Positions 3,349-34,606 of a DNA stretch of 64,000 nucleotides are shown here, piece by piece; the first letter of the stretch is position 1; each line of letters starts with the position of its first letter. A model generated the notes under the pieces. The model saw only the letters and a list, made by a program, of their open reading frames with translations. It was not told where the DNA came from and did not search any database. The translations under genes and the position numbers were made by a program. Origin of the DNA: Alphaproteobacteria bacterium (lineage in GTDB: Bacteria; Pseudomonadota; Alphaproteobacteria; JAAEOK01); NCBI GenBank assembly GCA_024244705.1, contig JAAEOK010000018.1, forward strand, positions 1 through 64,000. Direction: 5' to 3'.

Positions 3349-4212
3349 ATGCGCCAGATTAATTCGACCGTATCCCGGTGTTTGATTGGTATTTTCGTGT
3401 TGTCGGCTATGGCGTTGGCGGCGGAATCGACGCGCGCCAATGACGACGCTGCCACGCTGGATCTCCATCAATTGGCGGCGCAAGGCCGGATGCCGGCTTC
3501 GGTCGATATCAAGACCGAAAACGACATCGTCTACCATAAGGCGAAGCACTACAGCGGTTATCCGCTTCGTAATCTGCTGGCGCTCATCCCCAAGCTCGAC
3601 GACTTGCGACGCGGCGGCGCCGAAATCGTTTTCACCGCCGAGGACGGCTACCGTGCGACGATGGGACTCGACGAAGCCCTGGCGGCGAACGGGGTCGTCG
3701 CGTTCCGCGACCTCGACGCGCCGGCGGGCAAAAAATGGGTGCCGTTCACGCATGGCAAACAGACTATCACGCCGGCGCCCTATTACCTTGTCTGGCCGAA
3801 ACAGGACCCTAGCAATTGGGCGTACTCGTGGCCCTATCAATTGGCGAAGATCGCCGTTCAGCCCTTCAGCGACGTCTTTGGCGCGGCGGTGCCAAAGGAC
3901 CCCAACGCCGCTGTTCGTGAAGGTTTCTATGTCTTCAAGACTTATTGCCTGCAATGCCATTCGGTGAACCTGTCCGGTGGTGATTTGGCTCCCGAGCTAA
4001 ACGTTCCCCGCAACATCACCGAATATTTGCAGCGTCCGGTGCTGGAGGCGTTCATCCACGACGTACCCAGCTTTCGCGCCGGATCCAAAATGCCGAGTTT
4101 CAAAGATGTCCTGGCCGCGAAGGACGTTACCCGCGCCGTCGACTATCTCGAGCACATGGCCCGCCAAAAGGCGTGTCACGATGCCGAGGCCTGCGCCGGC
4201 ATGGTTCGGTAA
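3349..4212 (+). CDS. Exported mono-heme cytochrome c with an N-terminal oxidoreductase-like domain
   Basis: A 287-residue protein. Residues 1-30 form a signal peptide. Residues 35-165 resemble the small periplasmic domains related to the molybdopterin-oxidoreductase fold (YPLRNLLALIP, then VFTAEDGYRATM), but I see no cofactor-binding Cys there. The C-terminal part is a cytochrome c domain with CLQCH at 200-204 and the probable Met ligand in GSKMPSF (Met248). It is the first gene of a run of five on the same strand, 13 nt before the FAD monooxygenase. It may pass electrons in the periplasm. The pairing with a cytosolic flavoprotein is unusual, so the shared task is unclear. Confidence 0.75.
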   Translation: MRQINSTVSRCLIGIFVLSAMALAAESTRANDDAATLDLHQLAAQGRMPASVDIKTENDIVYHKAKHYSGYPLRNLLALIPKLDDLRRGGAEIVFTAEDGYRATMGLDEALAANGVVAFRDLDAPAGKKWVPFTHGKQTITPAPYYLVWPKQDPSNWAYSWPYQLAKIAVQPFSDVFGAAVPKDPNAAVREGFYVFKTYCLQCHSVNLSGGDLAPELNVPRNITEYLQRPVLEAFIHDVPSFRAGSKMPSFKDVLAAKDVTRAVDYLEHMARQKACHDAEACAGMVR

Positions 4213-21085: not shown

Positions 21086-22243
21086 CTATTCCGCCGTGAG
21101 GTCCCGCTCATAGATCCGGTAGGTCTTGTAGGGCTGTCCGCCGACCGCCTCGATCATATGTCGCATGCGCGTATTGTCCTCCAGCACCCAGGACAGCTCG
21201 ACTTGGCCGATCCCGCTCTTCATGTGGGTTTGGCGGATCGTATCGATGACCGCGAAAGCGATCGCCCCGCCCATCGGTGTTTGCTGCAAGCGCTGACGAA
21301 TGCCCATCAGGGCGACCCGCGCGGTCTTGAGCGACCCCACCTTCAGCCGCCACAGCAGCTTGGCCCAGCCGAACGGCAACAGCGCGCCGTCGAGATCGGC
21401 GATGGCTTCGTTGAGATTGGGCAGGCTTACCGCCATCGCGGCCGGCACGCCGTCGATCTCCGCGATGCAGACCAGATCCTCTCGAATCAACGGTTTCATT
21501 TCCTTCGCGATATGGGCCATCTCAGCTTCGCCGAGGGGCACGAAGCCCCAATTGTTGGCCCAGGCATCGTTGAAGATGTCGAGGATGGCGTGGAGTTCCG
21601 CGTCATAGCTTTTCTTGCGCAGCGGACGAAGCGTCACCTCGGGGCTCTGGCGCACGCGCTCGACGAGAGACGCCGCGACCTTCGGCATCGGCGCAAAGGA
21701 ATCATAGATATAGGCGATGAGGTCCTTCGCCTTGGCGTAGCCGATGGCTTCCAATTGGGCGCCGTAGTAGGGCGGCGCATGATTCATCATGATCATCGGC
21801 GGCGTGTCGAAGCCGTCGACAAGGAGTCCGGATTCGTCATTGATCGACAGGCTGAGGGGACCGCGGACCCGGCGCATCCCGCGGTCACGAAGCCAAGCCT
21901 CGGCGGTCCCGGTAAGGGCCTGGAAGACCTGCGCGTCGTCCTCGGCCTCGAGCAGGCCGAAATGTCCGGTCGCATCCTGATGCAGCTTTAGATAGGCAGA
22001 ATCAATTTGGGCGCTGATTCGGCCGACGACGCGCTGGCCGCGCCGGGCCACCCACAGCGCGGCCTCGGCGTGGTCGAAGAATGGGTTTTTGCGCTGGTCG
22101 AGGTGGTCGCGGCGTTCGAGAACGAGCGGCGGCACCCAGTTTGAATCGTGCGCGTAGATTGGCCAAGGGGTGCGGATGAAGGTGTCGAGAGAGGACTTGT
22201 CGGTTACCGCTTCGACGACGACTGCCTGTGCTTCATCGGCCAT
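21086..22243 (-). CDS. Bacterial ceramide synthase (bCerS), GNAT-fold acyltransferase
   Basis: A 385-residue protein of the long GNAT-like group. It opens [20 protein letters not shown] and includes the N-terminal segment [19 protein letters not shown], then [30 protein letters not shown] and [12 protein letters not shown] near the end. In Caulobacter a protein of this kind N-acylates 3-ketosphinganine (established work on bacterial ceramide synthesis). It follows the hydroxylase by 11 nt, in an operon with all other ceramide genes, which strongly supports the same role here. It has no membrane segment. The acyl-chain preference is unknown. Confidence 0.82.
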
Positions 22244-22254
22244 GAAAGGGCGGT

Positions 22255-23049
22255 CTAGCCGGCTCGCGGGCGTGGCGGGGAGGAGCCCTGCGCGGCGGTC
22301 AGCCGCGCGACCCAGGGATAGCGCCTCGCTTCTTCCTCTGTGTAACCGAGGTTGAATACGGTCGGGCTGCGCGGCACCTCGCGCGGATCGTCGTAGATGG
22401 TGCCGAACAATGCATCCCAGCGGAAATTGGTGATCCCGTAATTCGCTTTTTCGTAATGAAAATGGTGGGCGAGGTGCCGCTTCTTTATGCGCCGCAAGAA
22501 ACGGGATCTCGGCTTGAACGACAAATGCTGAACACAATGGCAGAATTCGTAAAAGCAAATGAGGTAACAGCCGGTCGCCAGAGCGGCGGTCGCACCCGGC
22601 AGGCCGCCAATAAACCAGCCGATCGGTGCGACGATCAGAATGACGGCCGGAACGGTCGTCGGTAGCGCCCCAAACAGCACGCGCAGGTCGTTGGGATTGC
22701 GGTGATGATCGAAATGAATTCGTTTCCACAATGCCGCCGTATAGGGCGACTTGTAGAGGAACGTCCCGTGAAGGATGTAGCGGTGGACTAGGTACCAGGC
22801 GAGCGGATAGGCGACCGCGGTCGCCGCTATTGAAAGTCCGATCGGCCACAGTCGGTCGGCAAGAAAAACGGTCAGAACGGCAAAACCGATCGTCAGCGCG
22901 ATATAGGCCTGGATCGCCGGATAGGTAAAAAAGGCGCGAGTCAATTCGCCGAGGGTAATCCGGTCGAGCCGGTAGTCGCGGTTGCGCCGCGCCCGGTCGT
23001 CCTCGCGCAATGGTTCAGTACGATCGTCCGTATTGTCGCTCGCGGCCAT
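22255..23049 (-). CDS. Fatty acid/sphingolipid hydroxylase (sterol desaturase superfamily)
   Basis: A 264-residue membrane diiron enzyme. The His clusters of the fatty acid hydroxylase superfamily are visible in order: HRYILH, HFDHH, HCVQH and HLAHHFHYE. Hydrophobic segments lie at about residues 45-85 and 125-165. The YILHG and FDHHRNP spacing is like that of the FA2H group, which 2-hydroxylates ceramide acyl chains, but C4 hydroxylation of the base cannot be excluded. It lies 15 nt after the serine palmitoyltransferase gene. It was not among the core enzymes of the described Caulobacter route, so it probably decorates the product. Confidence 0.82.
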   Translation of the reverse strand: MAASDNTDDRTEPLREDDRARRNRDYRLDRITLGELTRAFFTYPAIQAYIALTIGFAVLTVFLADRLWPIGLSIAATAVAYPLAWYLVHRYILHGTFLYKSPYTAALWKRIHFDHHRNPNDLRVLFGALPTTVPAVILIVAPIGWFIGGLPGATAALATGCYLICFYEFCHCVQHLSFKPRSRFLRRIKKRHLAHHFHYEKANYGITNFRWDALFGTIYDDPREVPRSPTVFNLGYTEEEARRYPWVARLTAAQGSSPPRPRAG

Positions 23050-23064
23050 GACGAAACTCCGCGA

Positions 23065-24300
23065 TCAAGCCCGCGGGGCCGCCGCGCGCGGCGCGGCGCC
23101 GCCGGGCGCGGGCAGAATCCCGGCTTCGTGGCCGACAGTCTCGAAAATCTCACAGATCTTGTCGATTTGGGCCTTGCTGTGGGCGGCCGATACACTGCAG
23201 CGCAATAGCGATAGCGCATTTGGCGTCCCGGGCGGAATCGCCAGGTTGACGTAGACGCCCGAATCAAGCAGGCGGTTCCACAGAAACACCGCCTTGTCCC
23301 GCTCGTCGATCTTGACCGCGACGACCGGGCTTGGCGGCGAGGCGACGTCGAAACCCAACGCGCTGAGGCCACCCTGGAGGGCCTTCGAATTTTCGGCCAG
23401 CGTGGTACGCAGATGTGGCGACGCCACCATGACCCGCAACGTCGCCCGCACCGAGGCAACGCTGGCCGGTGACGGCGATGCGCTGAAAATATAGGCACGA
23501 CTGGTGAAACGGATGAGGTCGAAGCGCGGGTGGTCGGACACCGCGAATCCGCCGATCGCGGCCAGACTCTTGCTGAAAGTTCCTACGATCACGTCGACAT
23601 CGTCCTCGACGCCGGCCTCTTCGGCCAAGCCGCGTCCGGTTTCGCCGAGCACGCCCAACGAATGCGCCTCGTCGACCAATAGACAGGCGCCGTGCTCGCG
23701 TTTCACCCGCGCGATGTCGGCCAGCGGCGCGCGATCGCCGAGCATGCTGTAGATACCCTCGACGATTATCAATTTGTTGCCGCCGTCGCCATCGAGCCGC
23801 CGCAATCGGCGATCGAGATCATCGGCGTCGTTGTGGCGGAATCGGATGACCGTCGCGTCGCTCAGCTTGCAGCCGTCATAAATGCTGGCATGGCTGTCGG
23901 CATCGATCAGTATGTAATCGCCGGTCCCGGCGAGTGCCGGGATGACGCCGAGATTGGCCTGGTACCCGGTGGTGAAGACGATGCATCCGCGGCGCTTCAT
24001 GAACGTCGCGATATCCTGTTCGAGGTCGCGGTGCAGCGCATAGGTGCCGTTGGCCAGTCGCGAACCCGTCGTCCCCGTGCCCTCGGCACGCAGCGCCTCG
24101 ATCGCGGCCTCGATGCACTCGGGATGGAAGGTCAGTCCAAGGTAGTTATTGGTGCCGGCAAGAATCACCTCGCGGCCATTGATGATCGCCTCGGTCGGTG
24201 AAAGGACGCGATCCATGCGCACGCCGAATGGTATTGTGCCCGCCGCCGCCAACTGGTTGCGTCGGCCCTCGACCACCGAGAATTTATCGAAAAGGTCCAT
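23065..24300 (-). CDS. spt: Serine palmitoyltransferase (alpha-oxoamine synthase)
   Basis: A 411-residue PLP enzyme of the alpha-oxoamine synthase family. The PLP lysine is Lys244 in TFSKSLAAIGGF, and the cofactor Asp/His lie in LLVDEAHSLGVLG. GTNNYLGLTFHPE and GTGTTGSRLANGTYALH are typical of the group. It condenses serine with an acyl thioester to 3-ketosphinganine. Paralogous KBL or BioF functions are possible from sequence alone, but the directly adjacent acyl carrier protein (3 nt upstream), CerR and AasR identify it as Spt. The C-terminal Ala/Pro/Arg tail is extra. Confidence 0.88.
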   Translation of the reverse strand: MDLFDKFSVVEGRRNQLAAAGTIPFGVRMDRVLSPTEAIINGREVILAGTNNYLGLTFHPECIEAAIEALRAEGTGTTGSRLANGTYALHRDLEQDIATFMKRRGCIVFTTGYQANLGVIPALAGTGDYILIDADSHASIYDGCKLSDATVIRFRHNDADDLDRRLRRLDGDGGNKLIIVEGIYSMLGDRAPLADIARVKREHGACLLVDEAHSLGVLGETGRGLAEEAGVEDDVDVIVGTFSKSLAAIGGFAVSDHPRFDLIRFTSRAYIFSASPSPASVASVRATLRVMVASPHLRTTLAENSKALQGGLSALGFDVASPPSPVVAVKIDERDKAVFLWNRLLDSGVYVNLAIPPGTPNALSLLRCSVSAAHSKAQIDKICEIFETVGHEAGILPAPGGAAPRAAAPRA

Positions 24301-24662: not shown

Positions 24663-25604
24663 TCATAACCATCCCGCCTCCCGATACCAAGCCACCGTGT
24701 GTCGGAAGCCCTCCGAAATCGGCATCGTCGGGCGCCACGATATGTGGTCGATTAGTGAATTGTCGTGGCACACCCAGTCCCCATGATATAGCTCGCGTAC
24801 CTTGTCCGGGGTAATCAAAGGCGCACGCTTGGTCAAGAGGCAGTAGGCGGAATTCGCCGCCGCGGCGAGTTCCATGCCCTTGCGTGGAACGGGAACGCGC
24901 AAGACCTTTCTGGCCAGAACCCGCGCCGCGGTGTCGATGATCGTATCCCATGAATAGCCGTCTTCCGATCCATCGTGGATGTCGAATATCGCGCCGCTTC
25001 GCATTTCGGCACCGAGCATGGCCGCGACGGCGGTGGCCAGGTCCTCGACGTGGATCATTGAAATTCGGGCACCGTCGGTTCGTGGCAAGAAAGCCAGCCC
25101 GCGGCGGATTTGGCGAAACAAGAGCAAGGTCGCCTGGTCGCCCGGACCGTAAATTGTGGGCGGCCTGAGTGCGGTCCATGCGGCAATTCCGGGCCGGTCC
25201 GCCAGCGCCAGTTCGGCCCTGTTCTTGCTTGCCGCGTATGGCGAAATCCACGGTTCACGCGCCGCCAGCGAAGAGATCAGGATGAACCGCGTCACGCCGC
25301 CCTGCAGCGCCGCCGCGTCGGCCAAATTGGCGGTTCCGGCGACATTGACGGCCTCGAACGCCGCCGCCGCCGTCCCCCTGATCAGACCGGCGCAATGAAC
25401 GATGGCGTCGGCCCCTTCGACCAGCGTGAGAAGGCTTGGCGGATCGTCGAGCGCGCCCACAACGGGGATCGCGCCGGCGATATGATCGATGGCGCCTTGG
25501 CGACGGGTCAGGGCGCGGACCGTCCACCCGGAGTCGCTCAATCTTTGTGCAATATAGCCGCCGACGAACCCGGTTGCACCGGTCACCGCCACAACCCCAG
25601 TCAC
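24663..25604 (-). CDS. NAD(P)-dependent 3-oxo-ceramide reductase (CerR-type epimerase/reductase)
   Basis: A 313-residue extended short-chain dehydrogenase. The nucleotide motif GATGFVGG lies at residues 9-16. The catalytic pair is in SPYAASKNRAEL (Tyr and Lys), with SSL upstream as the Ser. The C-terminal half is variable, as in epimerase-like proteins. In Caulobacter the homologous gene reduces the keto group after N-acylation. The position between the ligase and carrier genes matches the Caulobacter order, and the start and frame are clean. The function is assigned mainly by context. Confidence 0.83.
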   Translation of the reverse strand: MTGVVAVTGATGFVGGYIAQRLSDSGWTVRALTRRQGAIDHIAGAIPVVGALDDPPSLLTLVEGADAIVHCAGLIRGTAAAAFEAVNVAGTANLADAAALQGGVTRFILISSLAAREPWISPYAASKNRAELALADRPGIAAWTALRPPTIYGPGDQATLLLFRQIRRGLAFLPRTDGARISMIHVEDLATAVAAMLGAEMRSGAIFDIHDGSEDGYSWDTIIDTAARVLARKVLRVPVPRKGMELAAAANSAYCLLTKRAPLITPDKVRELYHGDWVCHDNSLIDHISWRPTMPISEGFRHTVAWYREAGWL

Positions 25605-25712: not shown

Positions 25713-27494
25713 TTATTCGGCGATCGATGCGTTTTGCGAGGTCGCGGAGGCGCGGTCGCGGGCGACTTCCGCATAGAGGCCGGAAAGATAGTTGTCGCGC
25801 GCACCGGCTCGGCTGATCTTGCCGGACGATGTCATTGAGATGCTGCGCGGCGGAACCAGGACAACCTTGCAATCGACACCCGCGGTCGAGCGCACGATGG
25901 CGGTAATTTCGCGCTTTAGTTCCCGATTGGCCTCGGCGTCGGTCTTGCGGCTTTGCACCACGACGACGACGGCCTCGGCGCCGTCGGGCCCGGGTACTGA
26001 GAAGGCGGCAACGTCGCCGCTCCGCAGACCGGGCAGTCGCTCGATCGCCCACTCGATGTCCTGCGGCCAAATATTGCGACCGTTATGGATGATCAAATCC
26101 TTGCTGCGCCCGGTAATGACCAACGAGCCGTCGATCATGTAGCCCATATCCCCGGTATCCAGCCAGCCATCCGGCTGGAGTACGCGCGCGGTCTCACCGG
26201 GATCGTTGTAGTAACCGGACATGATGCTCGGTCCGCTAATGAACACGCGGCCGATGCGGCGATCGGGCAGAACATTCGCCTCGTCGTCGCGGACTTCGAT
26301 CTGGTAGCCGGGCATGGGTCGCCCGCAAATCGCGAACGATCGAGTATTTGCCGAGGACGGCGATGCGTCTGCGGCGATCGGTTCGGCGCGATTGCTGAGC
26401 GCATAAGCCATTTTGTCGACGCAATCGACCTTGATGCGTTCGTCGAGGCCGGCGAAGCTGACCGCCAACGTCGCCTCGGCCAAGCCGTAGCTCGACAGGA
26501 AGGCGGTGTCGCGGAACCCGCATTCACTGAACCGGTCGGCGAAGAGCCTGAGAACGTCGGCACGGATCATGTCGCCGCCGATGCCGGCGACGCGCCACGC
26601 GCTGAGGTCAAACCCGGACAGCGATGTATTTTCCGCCCGGCGTCGACACAGGTCGTATCCGAAGGTGGGACTGAACGACAACGAAGCGCCGTTGGCCGAC
26701 ATGACCATGGGCCAAATCAGCGGCCGCCGCGCGAAATCGGCGGTCGCGATGTAGTCGACCGAGACTTGCGTCAGCACCGGAACGAACAGGAACCCAACCA
26801 GTCCCATATCATGATAAAGCGGCAGCCATGACACGCATCTGTCGCCTGGGCGAGCGAAGACGCCGTGTCGCGCGATAGCGCGACTGTTGCTGACCGCGGC
26901 GCGTTGAGAAATGAAGACCCCATGCGGGAAACGCGTGCTGCCCGACGAATATTGGATATAGCAGGGGTCGTCTTTGTCGAACGGCCGAAGATCCGCGCCA
27001 TCGCCGGGCAGGCGGTAGAAGTCGTCCGGCGTTCCGACCAGTTCCAGCGACAGTTCGGAAACCGCTTCCTTGAGATCGCCGATGGCCTCCGCAGAGGAGA
27101 CGGCCGCCACCGCCCCGGCGCCGTCGATCAGGCCCTTGAGCCGCTGCACATAGGAATCCTTGCCGCCCAAATTCATCGACAAGGGCAGCGGAACCGGGAT
27201 CAGTCCGGCATACTGGCAGGCGAAGAAAAAGCAGGCAAAATCGGGAATCGTTTCGGCCATGATCGCCATCCGTCCACCTCTCGGCAGGCCGGAGCGAACC
27301 AAACCCTGTGCCAATGCGACCGCGCGGTCCCGCACTTCGCGGTAGGTCAGGCCTTCGACGAATTCGCCGCGGAAGGAATAGAAATTGCATCCCGTCGAGC
27401 CTCGCGCAGCATAGTCGAGACCATCGGTCAAGGTATCGAAAGGCGCAATTTCAAACGGAAGGTTCGAGTTTGTCGTCGGCGTCGGTGTCAGCAT
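25713..27494 (-). CDS. Fatty acyl-AMP ligase/acyl-ACP synthetase (AasR-type)
   Basis: A 593-residue adenylate-forming enzyme of the FAAL-like group. Motif I reads IQYSSGSTRFPHGV, then LPLYHDMGLVGF, the adenine-binding SSYGLAEATLAVSF, and DTGDMGYMIDGSLVITGRSKD in the hinge. It would activate a fatty acid and load it on the pathway's carrier protein. It is the first gene of the ceramide operon. A 294-bp leader contains the inverted repeat at 27567-27595, and the next gene begins 108 nt after its stop. Confidence 0.85.
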   Translation of the reverse strand: MLTPTPTTNSNLPFEIAPFDTLTDGLDYAARGSTGCNFYSFRGEFVEGLTYREVRDRAVALAQGLVRSGLPRGGRMAIMAETIPDFACFFFACQYAGLIPVPLPLSMNLGGKDSYVQRLKGLIDGAGAVAAVSSAEAIGDLKEAVSELSLELVGTPDDFYRLPGDGADLRPFDKDDPCYIQYSSGSTRFPHGVFISQRAAVSNSRAIARHGVFARPGDRCVSWLPLYHDMGLVGFLFVPVLTQVSVDYIATADFARRPLIWPMVMSANGASLSFSPTFGYDLCRRRAENTSLSGFDLSAWRVAGIGGDMIRADVLRLFADRFSECGFRDTAFLSSYGLAEATLAVSFAGLDERIKVDCVDKMAYALSNRAEPIAADASPSSANTRSFAICGRPMPGYQIEVRDDEANVLPDRRIGRVFISGPSIMSGYYNDPGETARVLQPDGWLDTGDMGYMIDGSLVITGRSKDLIIHNGRNIWPQDIEWAIERLPGLRSGDVAAFSVPGPDGAEAVVVVVQSRKTDAEANRELKREITAIVRSTAGVDCKVVLVPPRSISMTSSGKISRAGARDNYLSGLYAEVARDRASATSQNASIAE

Positions 27495-27788: not shown

Positions 27789-28403
27789 TTACGCGGAACT
27801 CTTGGCCAACACATCTTTCATGCGCGAAATCAGGCCTGCCAAGCCCTCGCGCGACAAGACCGAGGCGAATTCCGAGCGTTTGGTCACCAGCAGGCTAACG
27901 CCTTCGACCTCGGTGTTGATGATCAGGAATCTCCCATTCGGCTTGGTGATATCGAAGGCAGCAGCGACATCGGGACCATCGTTGCGCTGGATCAGCCCCT
28001 GGACATAGGTCCCGTTTGTGCTCTTTCGCTCTTTGACGACCTTGAAGCCGTTGCCGTCATAGCCTGCAAATACACCGGCATAGATGGTCGCAACATATTC
28101 GGGCAGCAGCTCCATGAGGTCCTGTTGCTCGCCCGGTGTTGCCTTCTTCCAATAGCGGCCGGTGACGAACTTCGCAACGAAGGGGACATCGAATGAATCG
28201 AGGAAAATCGCCTCCAATTCCGATTGCCGTTCTTTGGGTTGGTCATTGGTTGCTTTCAGGACCTCGACGACCTTGGTTCCGAGCTCAGATACCCATTGAC
28301 CCGCGGTTTCCTCGGCTTGCGCTGGAAGCGCAGAGGCAGCGAATGCAAACACCATGGCGACCAAGCTCCGCCGCACCAACAAACGTGCTCCAGTTCCCGT
28401 CAT
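27789..28403 (-). CDS. MlaC/Ttg2D family periplasmic lipid-binding protein
   Basis: A 204-residue exported protein. A signal peptide is visible (VRRSLVAMVFAFAASALP, cut after AQA). The mature part has the MlaC signature: FDVPFVAKFVTGRYWKKATPG, then FLIINTEVEGVSLLVTKRSEF and the C-terminal LISRMKDVLAKS. MlaC carries phospholipids between the inner and outer membranes. No MlaD, E or F genes are next to it. It is upstream of, and in the same direction as, the ceramide operon, so a role in moving sphingolipids is an attractive inference but is unproven. Confidence 0.85.
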   Translation of the reverse strand: MTGTGARLLVRRSLVAMVFAFAASALPAQAEETAGQWVSELGTKVVEVLKATNDQPKERQSELEAIFLDSFDVPFVAKFVTGRYWKKATPGEQQDLMELLPEYVATIYAGVFAGYDGNGFKVVKERKSTNGTYVQGLIQRNDGPDVAAAFDITKPNGRFLIINTEVEGVSLLVTKRSEFASVLSREGLAGLISRMKDVLAKSSA

Positions 28404-29166: not shown

Positions 29167-29225
29167 GATTGCAGGCGACGAGCAAACTTGCGGGTTTGCG
29201 GCCTGTTTCGATTGAGGCCAGGCAA

Positions 29226-29687
29226 ATGATCAGATTGAGCCGACTGTCGGATTACGCGGTGCTGCTGATGACGCAAGTGGCACGCACTGCCGACGATATT
29301 CACACTGCGCATGACCTCTCGGACAGCACCCATCTTCCGGCACCGACGGTGAGTAAGATTCTTGCCACTTTGGCCCGCGCGAACCTGCTCGAATCGGTGC
29401 GCGGGCGGCAAGGCGGTTACCGGTTGGCGCAGGATTCATGCGATATTACGGTCGAGGACATCATCGCCGCGGTCGATGGACCGATCGCCCTTACCCAATG
29501 CGTGGAACAGGGTCCCGGGATGTGCGACGTCGAGGCGTTTTGCCCGTCGAGTACCCATTGGCATCGGATCAATGAGGCCATTCGGCGGGCCCTGGGTGAG
29601 GTGACCTTGGCCGAATTGACGGCCCCGGCGCCGATCGCCGTTCCGCGTGAACGCGCCACGATGGCCCGTTCCGTGGCGACCAACTAA
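29226..29687 (+). CDS. SUF system Fe-S cluster assembly regulator (Rrf2/IscR family)
   Basis: A 153-residue Rrf2 regulator. The winged helix-turn-helix opens MIRLSRLSDYAVLLMTQVAR and includes LPAPTVSKILATLARANLLES and GRQGGYRLA. Three Cys in LTQCVEQGPGMCDVEAFC are placed to bind a [2Fe-2S] cluster as in IscR. It would sense cluster supply and repress itself and the sufBCDSUTA genes that begin 42 nt downstream. The operator at 29152-29164 lies 62 nt before its start. The start at 29226 gives the canonical N terminus. Confidence 0.9.
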   Translation: MIRLSRLSDYAVLLMTQVARTADDIHTAHDLSDSTHLPAPTVSKILATLARANLLESVRGRQGGYRLAQDSCDITVEDIIAAVDGPIALTQCVEQGPGMCDVEAFCPSSTHWHRINEAIRRALGEVTLAELTAPAPIAVPRERATMARSVATN

Positions 29688-29729
29688 GCGACTGCGTTAT
29701 CGGGCCTTACGGCGGGAGAATTACTCAAA

Positions 29730-31190
<1,461 letters not shown>

Positions 31191-31234
31191 CCGCTTCGAC
31201 GACAAACCCCCAGCGCGGAGATTAATGATCACCC

Positions 31235-31981
31235 ATGCTTGAAATACGCGATCTACATGCCGCCGTGGACGGTAAGGAAATCCTCAAGGGCCTCGACCTC
31301 ACCATCAATGCGGGCGAGGTGCACGCCATCATGGGTCCCAACGGGTCCGGCAAGAGCACGCTGTCCTATGCGCTCGCCGGACGCGAGGGTTATGTCGTCA
31401 CCCAAGGCGAGGTCACCTACGACGGTGAGAACCTGCTCGACCTTGATCCCGCCGAGCGCGCCCAGAAAGGCGTCTTCCTCGCCTTCCAGTACCCGGTCGA
31501 AATCCCGGGCGTGGCGACGTCGACGTTCCTGCGCACGGCGGTCAATGCGGTCCGTCGCGCCAATGGCGAGAGCGAGCTTGACGCGGTGAAGTTTCTCAAG
31601 GCTGCCCGGGCCAAGATGAAGGAACTCGACATGGATGAGAAATTTCTCAGCCGTGGCGTCAATGTCGGCTTCTCCGGCGGCGAGAAGAAACGCAATGAGG
31701 TGCTCCAGATGGCCATGCTGGAGCCGCGGCTCGCGATTCTCGACGAGACCGATTCCGGCCTCGACATCGACGCCCTCAAGATCGTCGCCGATGGCGTCAA
31801 TGCGATGCGCGGCAGCGACCGGGCGATGCTCGTGATCACCCACTACCAACGCCTGCTCGACTATATCATTCCCGACCATGTCCACGTTCTGGCCAAGGGA
31901 CGGATCGTGAAATCCGGCGGACGCGAGCTGGCGCTTGAGCTCGAGGCAAATGGCTATGCCGAATACGACAGCGCCGCCTGA
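31235..31981 (+). CDS. sufC: Fe-S cluster assembly ATPase SufC
   Basis: A 248-residue ABC-type ATPase. Walker A is GPNGSGKST, the Q-loop is FLAFQYPVEIPG (with the SufC-specific PVEIPGV), the signature is VGFSGGEKKRNEVLQM, and Walker B is LAILDETDSGLDIDAL. It drives conformational change of the SufB-SufD pair. There is no membrane partner. The ATG at 31235 is the only usable start. An overlapping ATG at 31225 ends after five codons. Confidence 0.95.
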   Translation: MLEIRDLHAAVDGKEILKGLDLTINAGEVHAIMGPNGSGKSTLSYALAGREGYVVTQGEVTYDGENLLDLDPAERAQKGVFLAFQYPVEIPGVATSTFLRTAVNAVRRANGESELDAVKFLKAARAKMKELDMDEKFLSRGVNVGFSGGEKKRNEVLQMAMLEPRLAILDETDSGLDIDALKIVADGVNAMRGSDRAMLVITHYQRLLDYIIPDHVHVLAKGRIVKSGGRELALELEANGYAEYDSAA

Positions 31982-32000
31982 AGCCGGGGAAAGACCGAGT

Positions 32001-33353
32001 ATGACCGCGGTGGATTATCAACAACTCTTTGCGCAATCCGCGCCCGAACTTCCCGGCGCCGAGCTCGATTGGCTCGCAGCAATGCGCGACGGCGCCATCC
32101 GGCAGTTCGTGCGGGACGGCTTTCCCTCGCCCCGGGTCGAAGAATGGAAATATGCGGCGCTCGGCCCGCTGGCCAAAACCCGTTTCGAGCTTGCCGGTAC
32201 GACCGCCGCCGACCTTCGCCGGACATTGGACCGCGCGGCGATGCCGGCCGAGTCCTACCGCGTTGTTTTCGTCAACGGCCGGCTGCGGGAAGATCTTTCC
32301 GAGTTGGCGGCGCTGCCGCCCGGTGTCACCGTCAAGAGCCTTGCCGCAACGATCGCCGAAAATCCAGAACGCCTGCAGCCCTGGCTCACGAAGACCGCCG
32401 ATCTGACCGAAGACCGGCTGTCGGGCGTTCGCGACGAGCGGCCGTTCGCCATGGTGGCGATGAATACGGCCTTTGCGACCGACGGCATCGTCATTCATTT
32501 GGCGCGAGAATCGGCGGCCGAGTTGCCGATCCACATCATCAATCTGACCGCCACCGACAGCAACGACCGCATGACCCAGCCGCGGAATATCATCATCGCC
32601 GAGGAAGAGGCTTCGGCGCTGATCGTGGAAACCTATGCCGCGGTCGGCGAGACGAGTTATCTGACCAACGCGGTGACCCAGGTCTTTGCCGCCAAGGACG
32701 CCCATATCCGCCACTATCGCCTGCAGGCCGAAGCGGCGACTGCGTTTCACATCGCCACCACCCTGGCCCACCTCGATACGGCGGCCGCCTACGACAGTTT
32801 CGTGCTGTCGATCGGCTCGGCGTTTTCCCGTAACGAGGTCCGGGTGGCGCTCGACGGCGAGCATGTCCATTGTCGGCTCAATGGCGCCTATCTCGGCCGC
32901 GGCCGCCAGCACCACGATAACTGGACCCGGGTCGATCACCTGAAATCCAACGGGACCGTGAGCGAGACCTATAAGAGCGTCCTCGACGACAAGTCCCGCG
33001 GTGCCTTCCAAGGCAAGATTCGCGTGTGGCCCGACGCCCAGAAGACCGATGCCCATCAGCTCAACAACAATTTGCTGCTTTCGGCCGACGCCCAGGCCGA
33101 CAGCAAACCGGAGCTGGAGATCCTGGCCGACGACGTGCGCTGCAGCCATGGCTCGACGGTCGGAGATATCGACGAATCGGCGTTGTTCTATCTCTGCGCG
33201 CGCGGCATCGACGAAGGCCGCGCCCGCGATCTGTTGGTCGAAGCGTTCATCGGCGACCTCATCGATCACATCGGTTTCGGCACGGCGCACGACTATTTTC
33301 GGGATGCGTTCGAGGACTGGCTGGCCGCCGTCCGACGGGAGCACCAACCATGA
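32001..33353 (+). CDS. sufD: Fe-S cluster assembly protein SufD
   Basis: A 450-residue partner of SufB in the scaffold complex. It has PRVEEWKYAALGPLA near the N terminus, a beta-helix core, and the C-terminal CSHGSTVGDIDESALFYLCARGI segment that pairs with SufB. I chose 32001 (after GGGGAAAG) as the start: the frame open to 31935 overlaps sufC and reads poorly. The stop overlaps the sufS ATG (ATGA). Confidence 0.93.
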   Translation: MTAVDYQQLFAQSAPELPGAELDWLAAMRDGAIRQFVRDGFPSPRVEEWKYAALGPLAKTRFELAGTTAADLRRTLDRAAMPAESYRVVFVNGRLREDLSELAALPPGVTVKSLAATIAENPERLQPWLTKTADLTEDRLSGVRDERPFAMVAMNTAFATDGIVIHLARESAAELPIHIINLTATDSNDRMTQPRNIIIAEEEASALIVETYAAVGETSYLTNAVTQVFAAKDAHIRHYRLQAEAATAFHIATTLAHLDTAAAYDSFVLSIGSAFSRNEVRVALDGEHVHCRLNGAYLGRGRQHHDNWTRVDHLKSNGTVSETYKSVLDDKSRGAFQGKIRVWPDAQKTDAHQLNNNLLLSADAQADSKPELEILADDVRCSHGSTVGDIDESALFYLCARGIDEGRARDLLVEAFIGDLIDHIGFGTAHDYFRDAFEDWLAAVRREHQP

Positions 33354-34606
33354 CCGAAACGGTGCAGGCACGGGACCGGGACTCGGCGCCGCTCGACGTG
33401 AGCGCGATCCGTGCCGATTTTCCGATCCTCGCGGAAAAAATGTACGGCAAGGACCTGGTCTTTCTCGACAGTGCCGCCAGCGCGCAGAAACCGCGCCAAG
33501 TGATCGACGCCATCTCGACCGCCTACGAGACCGCGTACGCCAACGTTCATCGCGGCGCCTACCGGCTCAGCGGCCTCGCCACCGACGCCTTCGAGGCGGC
33601 GCGCAAGAAGGCGCAGCGGTTCCTCAATGCGGCCAGCGAGAAAGAGATCATCTTCACCCGCAACACCACCGAGGGCATCAATCTGGTCGCCGCGAGCTAC
33701 GGCCGGAAATTCCTCAAAGAAGGCGATGAGGTACTCATCACCCACATGGAGCACCACTCGAATATCGTGCCATGGCAGCTGCTGCGCGAGCAGACCGGCA
33801 TCGTGCTTCGGGTGGCGCCGATCGACGACGACGGCAACCTGATCATGGCGGCCTTCGCCGATCTGGTCACCGAGCGCACCAAGATGATCGCGGTGACCCA
33901 TGTGTCGAACGCGCTCGGTACCGTGGTCCCGGTCGACGAGATCTGTCAGATGGCCAGGGAGCGGAGCATCGTGACCCTGATCGACGGCTCGCAGGCGGTG
34001 CCGCATATCCCGGTCGACGTGCGCGACATCGGCTGCGATTTCTACGTCTTCACCGGGCACAAGGTCTACGGACCGAGCGGCATCGGCGTGCTCTACGGCC
34101 GCGCCGAATTGCTCGACGCGATGCCGCCTTACCAGGGTGGGGGCGAAATGATTCGCACGGTGACTTTCGAGAAAAGCACCTTTGCCGACCTGCCGCACAA
34201 ATTCGAAGCGGGCACGCCCAATATCGTCGGCGCCATCGGTCTCGGCGCCGCCCTCGATTATGTATCGGCGATCGGCCCCGAACGGATCGCTGCCAACGAA
34301 GCCCAGCTGCTCGCCTACGGCATGGACCGCCTGGCCCGGGTGCCGGGGCTGCGGCTCATCGGCACCGCGCAGCGCAAGCTCAGCGTCATGTCGTTTATCG
34401 TCGAGGGCGTTCATGCCCACGATGTCGGCACCGTTCTCGACAGCGAGGGCATCGCCATCCGTTCGGGCCATCATTGCGCGCAGCCGGTGATGGACCGGTT
34501 CGGGCTGACGGCGACGGCGCGCGCCTCGCTCGGCGTCTATTCGTCGATCGAGGACATCGACGCCCTGGTCGCTGGCCTGGCCAAAGTGCGGGAGATATTC
34601 GGCTGA
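33350..34606 (+). CDS. sufS: Cysteine desulfurase SufS
   Basis: A 418-residue PLP enzyme. The PLP lysine is in FTGHKVYGPSGIGVLYG and the persulfide Cys is in RSGHHCAQPVM near residue 377. ANVHRGAYRLS and the EHHSNIVPWQ segment are typical of the SufS group. It releases sulfur from cysteine for SufU and SufB. The start overlaps the sufD stop by 4 nt, and its stop overlaps the next ATG by one base, so the three genes are translationally coupled. Confidence 0.94.
   Translation: MTETVQARDRDSAPLDVSAIRADFPILAEKMYGKDLVFLDSAASAQKPRQVIDAISTAYETAYANVHRGAYRLSGLATDAFEAARKKAQRFLNAASEKEIIFTRNTTEGINLVAASYGRKFLKEGDEVLITHMEHHSNIVPWQLLREQTGIVLRVAPIDDDGNLIMAAFADLVTERTKMIAVTHVSNALGTVVPVDEICQMARERSIVTLIDGSQAVPHIPVDVRDIGCDFYVFTGHKVYGPSGIGVLYGRAELLDAMPPYQGGGEMIRTVTFEKSTFADLPHKFEAGTPNIVGAIGLGAALDYVSAIGPERIAANEAQLLAYGMDRLARVPGLRLIGTAQRKLSVMSFIVEGVHAHDVGTVLDSEGIAIRSGHHCAQPVMDRFGLTATARASLGVYSSIEDIDALVAGLAKVREIFG

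Follow-up and report, generated by a model that had tools for sequence, protein, structure and literature searches.

The gene at positions 22255-23049 of the window (the whole stretch of 64,000 nucleotides that was analysed) would encode, with a probability that we put at roughly 80%, an FA2H/Scs7-type di-metal, O2-dependent membrane hydroxylase devoid of cytochrome b5, which would add a hydroxyl group at C2 of an acyl chain, either the one amide-linked in dihydroceramide or the fatty acid yet to be attached by the bacterial ceramide synthase bCerS. Its role as a sphingolipid hydroxylase is well supported by the strict co-occurrence of the gene with bCerS, by the linkage of the two genes and by the Scs7 fold of the protein. 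We infer the reaction itself, the C2 position, the order of the steps (before or after bCerS), iron as the metal and an external electron donor.

The hydroxylase gene and the ceramide operon

The reading frame of the hydroxylase starts with an ATG (Table 1), and the plus strand is interrupted by stops over these positions. On the minus strand the genes follow one another in the order aas, cerR, acp, spt, hydroxylase and bCerS with gaps of 108, 89, 3, 15 and 11 nt, which confirms the spacing, and the position inside the ceramide operon, that a sequence-only reading of this DNA had given to the hydroxylase. The GNAT Pfam match of the bCerS reading frame is below the cut-off, and the identity of bCerS in the window is that of the label given in the same reading, together with the conserved neighbourhood. 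The order spt-hydroxylase-bCerS is also found in another genome (G228). A remark in a passage of PMC11324152 has cerS and spt in separate operons without exception; the gene order of the window contradicts it.

Table 1. Positions in the window of the ceramide operon genes and of the histidine clusters of the hydroxylase
Feature	Position	Strand	Basis and remarks
bCerS, bacterial ceramide synthase (GNAT-like N-acyltransferase)	21086..22243	-	ATG at 22243; 11 nt downstream of hydroxylase
FA2H-like membrane hydroxylase (PF04116), 264 aa	22255..23049	-	ORF, Pfam, alignment, fold, tree
His cluster 4, H192-X2-H195-H196 (HLAHH)	22462..22476	-	alignment; coordinates computed from residue numbers
His cluster 3, H171-X3-H175 (HCVQH)	22525..22539	-	alignment; coordinates computed from residue numbers
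His cluster 2, H112-X2-H115-H116 (HFDHH)	22702..22716	-	alignment; coordinates computed from residue numbers
His cluster 1, H89-X4-H94 (HRYILH)	22768..22785	-	alignment; coordinates computed from residue numbers
spt, serine palmitoyltransferase	23065..24300	-	NCBIfam equivalog NF047599, 634 bits (cut-off 500); 15 nt upstream of hydroxylase
acp (AcpR-like acyl carrier protein), 89 aa	24304..24573	-	DSVSV motif, by eye
cerR-like NAD-dependent epimerase/dehydratase	24663..25604	-	domain/family matches
aas-like fatty acyl-AMP ligase	25713..27494	-	NF006624, 762 bits (cut-off 600)

Family, fold and phylogeny of the hydroxylase

The protein matches the Pfam family PF04116 (FA_hydroxylase) with 73 bits (cut-off 31), and the ten histidines of its motifs (HX4H, HX2HH, HX3H and HX2HH) are invariant in all 25 aligned orthologs, of which the other 24 share 43-57% identity with the window protein; the four histidine clusters of the fatty acid/sphingolipid hydroxylase superfamily that had been recognised earlier are thereby borne out. 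The alignment also contains a conserved C-terminal tail at approximately residues 226-247 (SPTVFNLGY...RYPWV). The Pfam search of the hydroxylase gave no cytochrome b5, PF00487 or P450 domain, and the NCBIfam search gave no match to any model, including that of OlsE (NF052566).

Scs7, which hydroxylates the very-long-chain fatty acid of ceramide in yeast, is the sole solved relative in the PDB sequence search (4zr0/4zr1, E 2e-9), and it was found at 3.6e-13 in the profile search, where the one other row stands at 0.16. The AlphaFold2 model of the hydroxylase (pLDDT 85.2, pTM 0.81) returned Scs7 as the only Foldseek match at E < 0.001, and VIA-align superposed the model and Scs7 with a Z of 13.6 and an rmsd of 3.4-3.7 over 190-197 residues, the next structure having a Z of 2.8. 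VIA-align matches with Z < 3 were set aside as unrelated.

In a tree of 68 PF04116 domains, 28 orthologs form one clade (97/97) that lies on the Scs7 side with two bacterial FA2H-like proteins (99/95), beside FA2H and not inside it. The opposite half is sterol-desaturase/OlsE-like and holds the three further PF04116 proteins of the window's genome, one of which is OlsE-like (L001, G000:C77:119322-119723) and matches the OlsE model with 353 bits, below the cut-off of 475. In this tree, which has some long branches and whose rows hold no SUR2 or CrtZ reference, the protein groups with Scs7, away from the HX3H half, and is not placed in a carotenoid or sterol clade, an outcome that the sequence-only reading had named as speaking against its proposal.

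That reading had offered either 2-hydroxy or C4-hydroxy ceramide as the product. The hydroxylated ceramide is upheld by the association with bCerS and by the fold, and acyl 2-hydroxylation is favoured over C4 hydroxylation. A sphinganine C4-hydroxylase resembling SUR2, which would make 4-hydroxysphinganine (phyto-type) ceramide, would belong to the same Pfam superfamily, and an enzyme encoded between spt and bCerS could meet the sphingoid base. The first motif of SUR2 is HX3H; that of the window protein is HX4H, as in Scs7, and HX4H is found in all 33 scorable rows of its own side of the tree, against 25 HX3H and one HX4H among the 26 of the other half (the motif was not scorable in 9 of the 68 rows). 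Moreover, in carriers of the gene among the Sphingomonadaceae the base is dihydrosphingosine and the acyl chain is 2-hydroxylated (PMC13318209). We consider a C4-hydroxylase very improbable.

Several weaker matches, among them L010 and L011, come from small genomes (1.4-2.0 Mb) with no bCerS match and encode a related protein with the HFHNENYNWGITN motif and a similar tail; in three such places the frame contains an internal TAA. Since the rows L010 and L011 stand nearby and come from genomes with no bCerS match, the link to sphingolipids does not hold throughout the wider clade.

Co-occurrence and linkage with the ceramide synthase

A search of 386 genomes of the class with the hydroxylase gave matches in 54 of them at an E value of 1e-6 or lower. 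These split into 41 genomes with values no higher than 2.3e-70 and 13 with values of 7.9e-20 or above. The 41 genomes (42 loci) include G235 (2.1e-70) and the second copy of G313 (2.3e-70), which fall just past a cut of 1e-70. bCerS is present in 56 of the 386 genomes and in every one of the 41 ortholog carriers, 36 of which have it immediately downstream in the same orientation; this recurrence of hydroxylase then bCerS shows that the arrangement is not due to chance. The remaining five carriers all belong to one family, three loci of which have their best match in Saccharibacter (Acetobacteraceae). Fifteen of the 56 bCerS genomes have no hydroxylase gene, and the gene is therefore not needed for ceramide itself. 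In most carriers the hydroxylase-bCerS pair stands apart from the aas-cerR-acp-spt block.

Of 510 confirmed named loci, the best 80 divide as follows: bCerS lies directly downstream in 52 and within about 5 kb in 3 more, 5 are of the Parvularculaceae type, in which the gene and the aas-cerR-acp-spt block are divergent, and 20, including one that sits at the end of a contig, have no ceramide gene nearby. These 20 come mostly from Myxococcaceae and Nitrospinota, together with Saccharibacter. Ten of their genomes, myxobacteria and nitrospinas among them, were searched and all ten contain bCerS and Spt elsewhere; with two linked carriers, this brings the further genomes in which both were found to 12/12.

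These counts bear on the reading in which the enzyme would act on another lipid (an ornithine lipid as OlsE does, a carotenoid, a sterol or a hopanoid) and would find itself in the operon by chance. PF04116 does include such enzymes, and the HX4H motif is that of CrtZ as well. The presence of bCerS in all 41 class carriers and all 12 further genomes tested, the lack of an NCBIfam match for the hydroxylase, and the existence in its own genome of a paralog that matches OlsE below the cut-off and falls on the opposite side of the tree make this reading extremely improbable.

Exchange with a DesA-type protein in the Sphingomonadaceae

2-Hydroxymyristate is a chemotaxonomic hallmark of sphingomonads, whose 2-hydroxylated glycosphingolipids stand in for LPS. 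Four class genomes of a single family have bCerS and no hydroxylase, and carry beside bCerS a divergent desaturase-like gene, whose product contained PF00487 in both proteins tested. This DesA-type protein was found in 7 of the 386 class genomes, one of them by a weak match; the other six all have bCerS, and two of them also have the hydroxylase. The family is the Sphingomonadaceae, because one genome matches Pacificimonas pallii at 100% and others are closest to Sphingomonas. A search of solved structures with the DesA-type protein gave no match.

In a sample of 59 genera of the Sphingomonadaceae, bCerS is present in 58, of which 26 have the hydroxylase only, 30 the DesA-type protein (PF00487) only, one both (G433) and one neither (G426, whose genome is 67% complete). 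G421, the sphingomonad lacking bCerS, has neither. The near-complete mutual exclusion of the two genes has a Fisher p of 3e-14 when kinship is ignored. The hydroxylase lies upstream of bCerS and on its strand in 27 of 27 cases, 25 of them within 400 nt, and the DesA-type gene lies divergent beside bCerS in 25 of 31 genomes. The SufB tree of 57 genera (without G412 and G426, where the gene is partial) is a single-gene tree and hence a weak species tree; on it, the swap comes to about 10 changes, of which no fewer than 5 fall on well supported branches. Independent pairs on supported branches went the opposite way in about 5/6 and the same way never; the median p of the sign test is 0.0625, which alone is not significant.

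We lean towards a model in which the FA2H-like and DesA-type proteins, two unrelated membrane enzymes usually encoded beside bCerS, would be interchangeable ceramide acyl 2-hydroxylases that replaced each other about 5-10 times, with exactly one of the two retained in nearly every case, and in which these enzymes, not CYP152B1, would make the signature 2-hydroxymyristate of the sphingomonads. The main glycosphingolipid of the Sphingomonadaceae is 2'-hydroxymyristoyl dihydrosphingosine (PMC13318209); the sphingomonad trait being an acyl 2-hydroxyl on dihydrosphingosine, and the enzyme one or other of the two, C2 is favoured as the position. The competing view is that P450s of the CYP152 type carry out the 2-hydroxylation in these bacteria and that the hydroxylase gene does something else. 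It draws on passages of PMC10002949 in which the 2-hydroxylases cloned from Sphingomonas are P450s, CYP152B1 of Sphingomonas paucimobilis being a P450 fatty acid alpha-hydroxylase. It leaves unexplained why 57 of the 58 sphingomonad bCerS genera have the hydroxylase or the DesA-type protein, with a single overlap, and we consider it hardly probable; the distribution points away from P450s for the family-wide trait.

Outside the sphingomonads, a third hydroxylase beside bCerS in a genome devoid of the hydroxylase occurs, among the loci listed, in G035 only, which is also the only one of the 13 weak class matches to have bCerS: an FA2H-like protein of 206 aa, with a Scs7 match at 9e-28, is encoded there between spt and a convergent bCerS. 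The bCerS neighbours in G068, G117, G188, G210 and G212 are metallophosphatase, weakly Tam41-like, unnamed or LptF/LptG-type proteins, and the hydroxylase-less non-sphingomonad bCerS genomes have other PF04116 proteins elsewhere.

Proposed mechanism

By analogy with Scs7, the di-metal centre held by the ten histidines would activate O2, and one oxygen would be inserted at carbon 2, beside the amide or carboxyl group. The electrons would come from a separate carrier, because the protein has no cytochrome b5 domain; plant FA2H is likewise described in a passage of PMC10002949 as lacking it. The substrate would be ceramide, or the fatty acid before the action of bCerS, and the tight pairing with bCerS, and not with spt, fits either.

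The second of these, in which a free fatty acid or an acyl thioester would be 2-hydroxylated and then transferred by bCerS, leads to the same product and is counted inside our explanation. The coupling of the gene to bCerS and its usual separation from the aas-cerR-acp-spt block speak for it, and excerpts of PMC10002949 describe an established in vitro assay of FA2H that uses free fatty acids as substrate. The same excerpts state that ceramide fits the active site of Scs7 well and that acyl-CoA is most likely no substrate, and we hold hydroxylation ahead of bCerS to be a tentative option.

Relation to known hydroxylases

The window protein resembles yeast Scs7 and mammalian FA2H in its Pfam family, its HX4H-HX2HH-HX3H-HX2HH motifs, its predicted fold and its sphingolipid pathway. 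It differs from them in having no cytochrome b5 domain and an identity of only about 23-27%, and its conserved C-terminal tail comes after residue 219, where the printed alignment with Scs7 stops. OlsE is also a bacterial PF04116 lipid hydroxylase, but belongs to the HX3H half of the tree, and the OlsE-like protein of the window's genome is a separate gene.

Hydroxylated bacterial sphingolipids have long been known. The sequence-only reading placed such a modification outside the core bacterial pathway as described, a claim to be qualified accordingly, since both a myxobacterial and a Caulobacter enzyme have been reported. In myxobacteria, FA2H-like enzymes with similar histidine motifs and a tie to sphingolipids are described as functional fatty acid 2-hydroxylases of either stereochemistry (Ring et al. 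2009, as cited in passages of PMC10002949). The Myxococcaceae ortholog has 52-57% identity to the window protein, and it may be the published gene; unlike the window gene, it is unlinked to spt-bCerS. The Myxococcus genome tested encodes five PF04116 proteins, of which the ortholog alone gave a detectable Scs7 match. In a Corallococcus genome, a second protein of this family is closer to Scs7. In Caulobacter, hydroxylation of the amide-linked acyl chain of the sphingolipid has been attributed to CC_0202 (passages of PMC11324152, citing Stankeviciute 2022), and a figure legend of that article notes that the hydroxyl position cannot be assigned to C2 from its own data. CC_0202 is of the DesA family (PF00487-type) and not PF04116, and the sphingomonad DesA-type protein may be its ortholog. 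CYP152B1 (P450-SPalpha), although it shares the reported fatty acid 2-hydroxylation, is an H2O2-dependent P450 of an unrelated family.

In the open-licence literature, to which the search extended (subscription journals lay outside its scope), we found no description of the hydroxylase-bCerS pairing or of the exclusion with the DesA-type protein; the bCerS linkage and the DesA swap are new as far as that literature shows. They name a concrete gene pair for the 2-hydroxymyristate trait of sphingomonads, supply metagenome surveys with a marker of 2-hydroxylated bacterial ceramides, and apparently place two unrelated oxygenases in one slot of a pathway. That the acyl hydroxyl can matter to the cell is indicated by its reported link to colistin sensitivity in Caulobacter (an excerpt of PMC11324152).

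Further observations on the genomic neighbourhoods

G313 has two hydroxylase-bCerS pairs (L073 and L074) on different contigs. In L104, L105 and L106, which have no hydroxylase, LptF/LptG-type export genes stand beside bCerS, as identified by Pfam in L104 and by eye in the other two. In the myxobacterial loci L345 (G398:C62) and G401:C466, a PF04116 protein adjoins a second Spt-like alpha-oxoamine synthase, an arrangement that possibly belongs to another lipid pathway. The loci L157, L187 and L193, titled Comamonas, Bacillus and Candidatus Kuenenia, resemble myxobacterial or alphaproteobacterial ones, and these records are probably mislabelled or contaminated.

The genes spt and bCerS lie close together on one strand in the window (21086-24300), in L094 and in the Myxococcus locus L356, where 6 nt separate the two reading frames. 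In the window, an MlaC protein (PF05494, E 5e-33) is encoded at 27789-28403 on the same minus strand, 294 nt upstream of the ceramide operon, and L356 also has one (3449-4087) beside its spt-bCerS-cerR genes, neighbours that hint at Mla-type transport of sphingolipids. Further on, positions 29169-34606 of the plus strand carry a suf iron-sulphur cluster set (Rrf2-like regulator, sufB, sufC, sufD and sufS-like), named by eye, of which sufB alone was used, as a marker.
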